DNA of 44,587 bases from the NCBI GenBank assembly GCA_031261965.1, contig JAISIP010000079.1, positions 1 to 44,587 on the forward strand, given 5' to 3'. Below, one piece after another: positions 2,075 to 4,918 of this stretch; position 1 is the first letter of the stretch, and each line of letters starts with the position of its first letter. Origin of the DNA: Victivallales bacterium. Its GTDB lineage: Bacteria; Verrucomicrobiota; Lentisphaeria; Victivallales; Victivallaceae. The notes under the pieces are model-generated. The model saw only the letters and a list, made by a program, of their open reading frames with translations, ran no database searches and was not told where the DNA came from. The position numbers and the translations under genes were made by a program.

Positions 2075-2356
2075 TTAAAGCAAAAATTTAACCCCCTCGA
2101 TTTGGGCGAAATTTGCGCTTAGCGTGTCCAAGGTTTTTCGGTCTTGGAGCGTTGTTGCAACTTTCAACGTGACAAAGCGACCGCTGCCGGAGCGATTCCC
2201 GGCGTGAACGTCAGTGTCAAGCTGATGTTTTTTCAGGCATGATTTAATCTCGGTTTTGACTGCGCCTTCCCGATCGGATTCGACGACGATTCGGAACTCC
2301 CAGTCTACTGGAAATTTTAACTCTTTTCCTCTGATTTTCAGCGGGGAACTGCTCAT
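2075..2356 (-). CDS. DUF493 (YbeD-like) family protein, 93 aa (MSSSPLKIRGKELKFPVDWEFRIVVES...)
   Basis: Size and motif (FPVDWEFRIVV... SGRFVTLKVAT... L..IEGVKFLL) resemble YbeD-type ACT-like small proteins; start at 2356 gives an ATGA overlap with the upstream small ORF. Confidence 0.7.
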   Translation of the reverse strand: MSSSPLKIRGKELKFPVDWEFRIVVESDREGAVKTEIKSCLKKHQLDTDVHAGNRSGSGRFVTLKVATTLQDRKTLDTLSANFAQIEGVKFLL

Positions 2357-2475
2357 TTGCCGCATCCTGTTTTTTGGCCCCGCCCGTGGTGAAAGCTTTG
2401 GCACTGGACGCAAATGCCGTGGCGGGGGCAAGTTGAGTTTGGGCACGGACAGCTTGGATTCTTCTTTTCGCTCAT
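2353..2475 (-). CDS. Cys-rich microprotein, 40 aa: MSEKKNPSCPCPNSTCPRHGICVQCQSFHHGRGQKTGCGK
   Basis: ATG overlaps the nifS stop (ATGA at 2475-2472) and its stop overlaps the DUF493 start (ATGA at 2356-2353); CxC-x4-C-x2-H-x2-C-x2-C-x3-HH metal-site pattern. Not in the supplied ORF track. Confidence 0.75.
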   Translation of the reverse strand: MSEKKNPSCPCPNSTCPRHGICVQCQSFHHGRGQKTGCGK

Positions 2476-3668
2476 TTGTCTCTCTCTTCCCAATATGGTG
2501 AAATGGCGCGCAGCCGCTCAATCACCGGCGGCAATGCTTCAATGACAAAATCGATCTCGTCGGCGGAATTGTACTTCGAGAGGCTGAAACGGATCGTGCC
2601 GTGAGCCGCCGTATAAGGCAGATTCATTGCACGCAACACATGCGAGGGTTCAAGACTCCCGGTGGTACACGCCGAGCCGCTTGACGCGCAAATATTCATC
2701 ATATCAAGCAACATAAGAATGGATTCACCCTCGATGTATTCAAAACTGATCGAGGCGGTGTTCGGCAATCTATTTGCCAAATCGCCGTTGATGCGAACAT
2801 GGCTGATACGTTCCCGGACTCCCGCTTCAAGACGGTCGCGCAATTTGGCAAGTTGCACGCTTTCAAGTGCGAGATTGCGTTTAGATAGTTCGCACGCCTT
2901 TCCGAACCCGATCAGCGAGGCGACGTTTTCGGTGCCGCCGCGCCGTCCTTTTTCCTGATGTCCGCCGAAAATCAACGGTTTAAAGCGCGTGCCGCGTCGG
3001 ACGAAGAGTGCGCCGACCCCCTTTGGGGCGTGCAATTTATGCCCGGAGATAGTCAAAAAATCAATTTCGCTGTTTTCGAGGTTGATCGGCACTTTGCCGG
3101 CGGCTTGCACCGCGTCGGAGTGAAACAATGCGCCGTTGGCATGTGCCATTTTTGCGACGGTCTCCACCGGGAAAATCGTGCCGGTCTCATTGTTAGCCCA
3201 CATTATTGAGACCACCGCCACGGAGTTGTCGATCGCCCGCTCGGCGTAATTTAAGTCAAGTCGCCCGTGTTCGTCCACCGGGATGTATTCGATTTCGTAT
3301 CCGCGATGTGAAAGCTCCTTGCAATAGGTCAATACTCCCGGATGCTCCACAGCGGATGTGACGATCTTATTTCGCCCCGGGCGGGCGTTTACTGCGGCAT
3401 TGATCGCGGCGTTGTCGCTTTCGCTGCCGCAGCTGGTGAAGATAATTTCGGTCGCGTTGCCGTCTTTGTCGCGAAAGGATGAGCCGAGTAATTCCGCAAC
3501 TTGCCGCCGGGCGTTTTCAATATCGGCACTGACGCTGCCGCCGAAGCGGTGAATACTCGACGGGTTGCCGTAGCGTTCACAGAGAAACGGACGCATCGCC
3601 TCGAACACTTCGGCGTCGACGGCGGTCGTGGCGTTATTGTCCAAATATATAATTTTGTCACTGTTCAT
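2472..3668 (-). CDS. nifS: Cysteine desulfurase, NifS/IscS family
   Basis: MNSDKIIYLDNNATTAVDAEV..., PLP lysine motif ISGHKLHAPKGVGAL, catalytic Cys loop SSGSACTTGSLEPSHVL. Confidence 0.92.
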   Translation of the reverse strand: MNSDKIIYLDNNATTAVDAEVFEAMRPFLCERYGNPSSIHRFGGSVSADIENARRQVAELLGSSFRDKDGNATEIIFTSCGSESDNAAINAAVNARPGRNKIVTSAVEHPGVLTYCKELSHRGYEIEYIPVDEHGRLDLNYAERAIDNSVAVVSIMWANNETGTIFPVETVAKMAHANGALFHSDAVQAAGKVPINLENSEIDFLTISGHKLHAPKGVGALFVRRGTRFKPLIFGGHQEKGRRGGTENVASLIGFGKACELSKRNLALESVQLAKLRDRLEAGVRERISHVRINGDLANRLPNTASISFEYIEGESILMLLDMMNICASSGSACTTGSLEPSHVLRAMNLPYTAAHGTIRFSLSKYNSADEIDFVIEALPPVIERLRAISPYWEERDK

Positions 3669-3817
3669 GATGTATGGAATCCTTGATCTTAGCTTTACGC
3701 CTTTAAAATAAACCATATTTTTTGAAAAAGTCAATCTTTTTTGTCAATTTAATGATATATTATGGAGCTGAGCGATTAGCTCTGGAGTTAGAAGTAGCGC
3801 AAAAGGGATATTGGCAC

Positions 3818-4918
3818 ATGGTTTATCTGGACTGGGCGGCGGCGGCGCGACCGCGATGCGAAACAATCGAATATTACAATTCGCTCTTGAGCAGGAATTT
3901 TGCCAATCAGGAATCGGCGCATCGTCTCGGCTATGAGGCGCGTAAGGAACTTGACTCCGCGGCGGCGCGGTTGTCAATGGCGTTGTTCGGGAATGACAAT
4001 TACGCCGTGATTTGGGGAACGAGCGGCACCGAGTTGTTTCGGCTCATAGCCGATTCCCCTTTGGCAGCTGACAAAAAAGTGGTGACTTCGCTATTGGAGC
4101 ACCCGGCACTTATGGCGAATTTGCGTCGAACGGCACGCGACGCGAAGTTTTTGGCGGCGAAGTCGGACGGCGAACTTATTCCCGTTAAATCCGAGGCGGA
4201 CCTTGTCGCGTTTCACCTAATTCAAAGCGAGCTTGGGCGGATTCAAGTGCCGGAAAAGCTTTTTGATCAATACCCCAAGGCAATTAAAATACTTGACGCG
4301 ATTCAAGCTGCCGGACGGTTGCCTTTGACCGATCATGTGGCGGATATTGTCGCAATTTCCGGGCATAAGTTCGGCTCGCCGGGAGGAGGAGCGGCGTTAC
4401 TGGTCGATAAACGATCTGTTTGCGCTAAAGTGCTGACGGAGTTCTCCAAAAACTACCGGCAGGTGGATTATCTGATCGGTCGCCCCGAAGTTCCCGCGTT
4501 GCTTGCTCTGGTGTTCGCCGCCGAATTGAGTTGTCGCGATATGGGTGAATCGCTGGGGCGTGTCAGAGAGCTGAACCGATTTTTAAGGCGGGAACTCACT
4601 AATCTTGACCTGCCCGGCGGGAAAAAGATTTTTTGCACGATTCCGGAAGAGCTGTCTTCACCTTATATTTTGCATGTGATGTTGCCCGGAATTGAATCCG
4701 GCGTGATAGTTCGTATGCTCTCGGAATCGGGAGTCATGGTCGCAGCCGGCAGTGCCTGTTCGTCGGAGAGTCGCAAGCCGTCGGCGGCGTTACTCGCCAT
4801 CGGCTGCAAAAAAGCCGATGCCTGGTCGGGACTGCGGATCAGTCTGGGGCAGGACTCTTCACTCAACGACGCTAAAAAGTTGCTTGAAGCATTGCGAAAT
4901 GTGTTGAAAAACTGGTGA
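3818..4918 (+). CDS. Second, divergent cysteine desulfurase-like class V aminotransferase
   Basis: MVYLDWAAAARPRCETIEYY..., ISGHKFGSPGGGAALL, GSACSSESRKPSAAL. Confidence 0.85.
   Translation: MVYLDWAAAARPRCETIEYYNSLLSRNFANQESAHRLGYEARKELDSAAARLSMALFGNDNYAVIWGTSGTELFRLIADSPLAADKKVVTSLLEHPALMANLRRTARDAKFLAAKSDGELIPVKSEADLVAFHLIQSELGRIQVPEKLFDQYPKAIKILDAIQAAGRLPLTDHVADIVAISGHKFGSPGGGAALLVDKRSVCAKVLTEFSKNYRQVDYLIGRPEVPALLALVFAAELSCRDMGESLGRVRELNRFLRRELTNLDLPGGKKIFCTIPEELSSPYILHVMLPGIESGVIVRMLSESGVMVAAGSACSSESRKPSAALLAIGCKKADAWSGLRISLGQDSSLNDAKKLLEALRNVLKNW

Follow-up and report, generated by a model that had tools for sequence, protein, structure and literature searches.

Bacterial metallothioneins are small, cysteine-rich proteins that employ thiolate ligands. 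Among other systems relevant to the locus discussed here, Escherichia coli ybeD lies upstream of lipB and has no assigned function (PMC4398509), and the structure of its product is described as allosteric-domain-like (Kozlov 2004, as cited in PMC4398509 and PMC2900299). A literature search for ybeD together with IscS returned nothing that links the two directly, and a search for DUF6485 found no paper. How, then, could one account for a cysteine-rich microprotein encoded between nifS and a DUF493 (YbeD-like) gene in a Victivallales bacterium of the class Lentisphaeria? We address this question for a stretch of 44,587 nucleotides, hereinafter the window. The best explanation, to which we assign a probability of about 0.42, is that the microprotein is a metal/thiolate module of a DUF6485-like superfamily that would be accessory to the DUF493 protein in transactions around NifS-derived sulfur.

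The gene cassette

The 40-codon open reading frame (MSEKKNPSCPCPNSTCPRHGICVQCQSFHHGRGQKTGCGK; six cysteines and three histidines) lies between nifS and the DUF493 gene exactly as described in the initial annotation, with respect to coordinates, order and sequence, and the two ATGA overlaps reported there are both present (Table 1). Because such overlaps occur at both junctions, translation of the three genes is likely to be coupled. The nifS product is, judging by its profile score, a NifS-type cysteine desulfurase of predicted activity (TIGR03402, 583.6 bits against a cut-off of 530.75) and the sole close NifS of its genome (E≤1e-60), which encodes a NifU-type scaffold elsewhere. The DUF493 protein belongs to Pfam PF04359 (41.5 bits against a cut-off of 24, E 2.1e-10) and scores under the cut-off of the NCBIfam HP0495 equivalog model (39.4 against 45).

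A direct repeat, AAATGAGC, is found on both sides of the microprotein reading frame (window positions 2351-2358 and 2470-2477), and both the microprotein and the DUF493 protein begin with Met-Ser; the repeat is compatible with insertion of the small gene at the old DUF493 start. The divergently transcribed NifS-like paralogue retains the SGHK and SAC motifs and scores far under the cut-offs of all desulfurase equivalog models. In most congeners, a paralogue of this kind adjoins nifS in the divergent orientation.

Table 1. Coordinates of the cassette features in the window, and of related loci elsewhere
Feature	Location	Strand	Remarks
Cysteine desulfurase gene nifS	2472-3668	minus	398 aa; TIGR03402 above cut-off
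Cys-rich microprotein gene	2353-2475	minus	40 aa; ORF and translation, homologues, purifying selection, conserved columns
DUF493 (YbeD/HP0495-like) gene	2075-2356	minus	93 aa; Pfam PF04359 above cut-off
ATGA overlap, nifS stop/microprotein start	2472-2475	minus	4 nt
ATGA overlap, microprotein stop/DUF493 start	2353-2356	minus	4 nt
NifS-like paralogue, divergently transcribed	3722-4918	plus	weak to all desulfurase equivalog models
ars-type loci of the ...PDNGGDKS sub-branch	L055, L091, L092, L097, L114, L129, L151, L286, L287		Clostridia and Spirochaetes
Fusion of Cys-rich module and O6-methylguanine methyltransferase (MGMT)	L109:1543-2172	plus	single case
Fusion of Cys-rich module and ArsC/Spx-family protein	L122:3818-4300	minus	single case
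Fusion of Cys-rich module and TrmO-type tRNA methyltransferase	L096:2045-2695	minus	single case

Conservation and predicted structure of the microprotein

The reading frame is almost certainly a real gene and not a chance occurrence, given that a single instance of its Cys/His DNA pattern is present in the window and none in 100 dinucleotide shuffles, that homologues are present in 22 of 100 relatives, and that synonymous divergence exceeds nonsynonymous divergence specifically in this frame. Across the four genomes that share the cassette, pS is 0.39-0.93 and pN 0.06-0.32, a contrast that is gone in the other two frames; for the pair G002/G003, dN is 0.07 and dS 0.55. By this measure, the codons are under purifying selection, so that the earlier claim of a real, conserved gene is borne out. 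In the class as a whole, homologues were detected in 32 of 198 genomes (E≤1e-5), and the matching contigs place the group in Lentisphaeria.

The ligand-type residues C9, C11, C16, C22, C25, H29 and C38 are near-invariant among the homologues, and 99% of 146 sequences retain the last cysteine, which lies outside the search pattern. Of the metal-site pattern originally proposed, CxC-x4-CxxH-xxC-xxC-xxxHH, the six cysteines and His29 thus hold in homologous loci, where their loss had been named as grounds for abandoning the proposal. The CxxH and HH elements do not belong to the core since Asn replaces His19 in some members and conservation does not extend to His30. In one congener (G003; L208 / L038), C25 is replaced by Tyr in a gene that is otherwise under purifying selection, which could reflect either natural loss of a ligand or an assembly error.

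AlphaFold2, run with 30 sequences, predicts a single helix (residues 22-31; mean pLDDT 81.9) that bears C22, C25 and H29. A Foldseek comparison of this model with the PDB gave no match below E 6.9, and a PDB sequence search yielded no convincing match and hence no biochemically or structurally characterized homologue. PDB matches to knottin peptides and eL37 were rejected on account of cysteine composition and weak E-values; we also reject a Pfam Integrin_B_tail match under the cut-off (E 0.0044), which we attribute to chance similarity in cysteine composition. The conservation of the ligand set suggests that the microprotein probably binds metal; the six cysteines and one histidine, distributed over a short loop and the single helix that follows it, would most likely coordinate a soft metal (Zn or Fe).

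Probable placement in a DUF6485-like superfamily

The microprotein is recognized by neither Pfam nor NCBIfam: the window protein gives no match to DUF6485 (PF20095) at E≤1, let alone at the 24-bit gathering cut-off, and the DUF6485 matches of its own genome reach only 15.1 bits and lie elsewhere. Nevertheless, when the short Lentisphaeria branch is compared with DUF6485 profile to profile, hhalign reports a probability of 96.7 (E 4.6e-10), and the alignment shows that the DUF6485 cysteine skeleton, C-x-C...C...G-x-C-x2-C-x3-H...C, is present in the microprotein. Furthermore, 10 of the 30 representatives of a wider scan match DUF6485 at E≤0.01 (best 1.4e-10). The C-terminal half of DUF6485, F...E.T(Y/W)DRS, is absent, the microprotein ending two residues past the last cysteine. 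Because of this missing half and the score under the cut-off, the microprotein does not qualify as a DUF6485 member by the Pfam definition; because of the matches among the representatives and the profile-profile alignment, it is, with high likelihood, a short, divergent member of what we define here as a wider DUF6485-like cysteine superfamily, that is, stand-alone small proteins with six cysteines and a histidine at fixed spacing including the last cysteine, features that the microprotein shares.

The scan in question was a DNA pattern search of 84,980 species genomes. It returned at least 119 stretches, nearly all with a small Cys-rich reading frame; as the pattern fixes five cysteines, one glycine and one histidine by design, independent conservation in this set is confined to the last cysteine and to R/H preferences. 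The matches listed come mostly from Clostridia, with Spirochaetes, Fibrobacterota, deltaproteobacteria, Omnitrophota and Planctomycetota also represented, along with archaea (Thermoplasmata/Methanomassiliicoccales, DPANN archaea and one Lokiarchaeote); none of those listed are from Actinomycetota or gammaproteobacteria. These lineages are largely anaerobic. The superfamily is thus widespread and almost unrecognized, Pfam DUF6485 being its only named part.

DUF493 as the steady gene neighbour

The comparison of relatives does not support a conserved desulfurase cassette. The full nifS-microprotein-DUF493 order is found only in G000, G002, G003 and G005, which form a subclade of one genus (NifS identity 85-88% within the subclade, compared with 73-75% for the rest). 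In the other five congeners, nifS and DUF493 adjoin each other, often through the same ATGA overlap, and the microprotein has left no trace. Of 61 relatives, 43 carry DUF493; in this set, DUF493 directly follows nifS in 23 (four of them with the microprotein in between), follows the microprotein with no nifS in 8, and follows neither in 12; one further genome outside this tally, G039, brings the microprotein-DUF493 arrangements lacking nifS to nine. The form of the microprotein that ends in C-G-K adjoins DUF493 (13 genomes from 7 genera and 2 families) or directly follows thiI (three genomes of one genus, g2: G027, G038 and G044) in all 16 Lentisphaeria genomes that carry it.

DUF493 is the steady partner of the microprotein, and the nifS neighbourhood is local to a few related genomes; adjacency to nifS alone should not serve as a basis for naming the protein. 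From the tally and the congeners that lack the microprotein, nifS-DUF493 looks like the older pair in the bacterial family and microprotein-DUF493 like a second arrangement, spread over seven genera, the window combining both. The microprotein-DUF493 link may be a single ancestral arrangement, so the genomes that share it should not be treated as independent events. The nifS-DUF493 pair is conserved in the bacterial family of the window (DUF493 loci L214-L243 and L270-L279). In two genomes, DUF493 is immediately preceded by a tandem array of divergent microprotein genes (three copies in L034 of G017 and two in L031 of G033).

Sulfur, selenium and metals: weighing the alternatives

G077 encodes an in-frame fusion between SelD and a longer relative of the microprotein (L045:1593-2813, minus strand). 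The fusion has a UGA codon (residue 74) at the catalytic position of SelD (MILYQGKNCPCP...KIRLLDYTKCAG-U-AGKLKPG...) and reaches 332 bits with the selD model (cut-off 125); it would appear to be a selenophosphate synthetase of the selenoprotein type that carries a Cys-rich module. Together, nifS, thiI and SelD make three separate links to enzymes of sulfur or selenium delivery in one class, of limited independence as the thiI link comes from one genus and the SelD fusion from one metagenome-assembled genome. A sulfur/selenium role of the Lentisphaeria branch is plausible because relatives follow thiI and one is fused to SelD. DNA glycosylase genes also adjoin relatives, of the HhH-GPD type in L046, L047, L048 and L199 (Lentisphaeria) and of the Tag type in L050, which may point to an additional link with base-excision repair.

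Could the position next to nifS be incidental, inherited through linkage to DUF493, with the microprotein acting as a general metal- or metalloid-thiolate protein, loosely metallothionein-like, that serves as a buffer, chaperone or stress sink? The wider family speaks for this alternative. It is very widely spread, with highly diverse neighbours and, at 64 of the 119 loci among the matches listed, no close same-strand neighbour at all. In 9 of 11 loci, a sub-branch with the C-terminal tail ...FPDNGGDKS has as neighbours genes for ArsR, ArsP, an ACR3-like permease (SBF), a thioredoxin_3 protein or a P-type ATPase; such genes occur, among the matches listed, only there. In one relative within the wider family, the module is joined to an ArsC/Spx-family protein. 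The ars-type context of this sister sub-branch and the latter fusion favour soft-metal or metalloid thiolate chemistry of the fold. (Recurrent fusion to MGMT was sought, and none was found beyond the one case.) What makes this alternative rather unlikely is the non-random placement of the C-G-K branch, by DUF493 or thiI in 16 of 16 Lentisphaeria genomes, and the SelD fusion in the same class.

The idea put forward in the initial annotation, a dedicated acceptor or relay of persulfide through which sulfur from NifS would be passed onward, draws on the conserved cysteines, the overlap with nifS and the links to ThiI and SelD, both users of desulfurase-derived sulfur or selenium. We consider it improbable: five congeners with the same nifS-DUF493 pair lack the microprotein, nine genomes have it beside DUF493 without nifS, and the six cysteines and histidine at fixed spacing resemble ligands, not a single acceptor thiol. 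Co-occurrence with desulfurases, which had been proposed as a check, is confined to the four genomes of one subclade; among the matches listed, none of the 119 wider loci has NifS, ThiI or SelD nearby within the fetched stretch. In Lentisphaeria, relatives do lie behind thiI, and one is fused to SelD. A role as Fe-S cluster carrier or as scaffold adaptor, with assembly by NifS, is still more doubtful, for the six cysteines, the anaerobe-rich distribution of the matches listed, the coupling to nifS and the NifU-type scaffold elsewhere in the genome are set against the lack of any sequence or fold relation to known carriers and the local nature of the nifS link.

The reading of the microprotein as accessory to the DUF493 protein, and not a core part of the desulfurase, appears best able to accommodate these findings. 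In its favour count purifying selection and the homologues, the 16/16 adjacency to DUF493 or thiI, the nifS-DUF493 pair in 23/43 genomes, the SelD fusion, the DUF6485 profile match, the conserved ligand set with its predicted helix and the ars-type operons of the sister sub-branch; against it count the lack of a PDB or Foldseek homologue, the very diverse neighbours of the wider family with the 0/119 result among the matches listed, the five congeners without the microprotein, the possible non-independence of the genomes, the narrowness of the thiI and SelD links and the fact that the function of DUF493 is not established. Under this scenario, a small thiolate-rich protein of the superfamily would, in the C-G-K branch, have come to assist proteins that deal with the sulfur or selenium set free by cysteine desulfurases, chiefly the DUF493 protein and elsewhere ThiI. 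In the genus subclade, its gene would have been placed inside the older nifS-DUF493 pair, so that three proteins would be made together. The microprotein would then probably dock on or modulate the DUF493 protein and, through it, NifS, without being an obligatory step of desulfuration. This partnership in NifS-linked sulfur handling we propose tentatively.

Comparison with described systems

An unrecognized branch of a widespread small-protein family is now tied to genes of sulfur and selenium delivery, and a family previously without partners gains testable ones. A broader and speculative generalization, which we regard as not very likely, is that this large superfamily of six-Cys proteins (40-70 aa) from anaerobic bacteria and archaea, which has hardly been annotated, consists of interchangeable modules for soft-metal and chalcogen handling. 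In Lentisphaeria, these would be deployed with NifS-DUF493, ThiI and selenocysteine-containing SelD; in Clostridia and Spirochaetes, their partners would be ArsR/ArsP systems.

Like bacterial metallothioneins, the microprotein is small, Cys-rich and of the thiolate-ligand type, but it has fewer cysteines in a single conserved spacing pattern, and none of the Pfam metallothionein models matches it. With DUF6485 it shares the order and spacing C-x-C-x(3-4)-C-x2-(K/H)G-x-C-x2-C-x3-H-x8-C, whereas DUF6485 has an extra N-terminal cysteine and the second half F...E.T(Y/W)DRS. Compared with NifS (TIGR03402) operons, the window has a full-scoring NifS, whereas a nifS-coupled Cys-rich microprotein is found only in the four related genomes. 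Finally, the DUF493 gene of the window follows nifS, unlike E. coli ybeD, which lies upstream of lipB; the nifS-operon context that DUF493/YbeD gains in 23 of 43 genomes may help to place this family.
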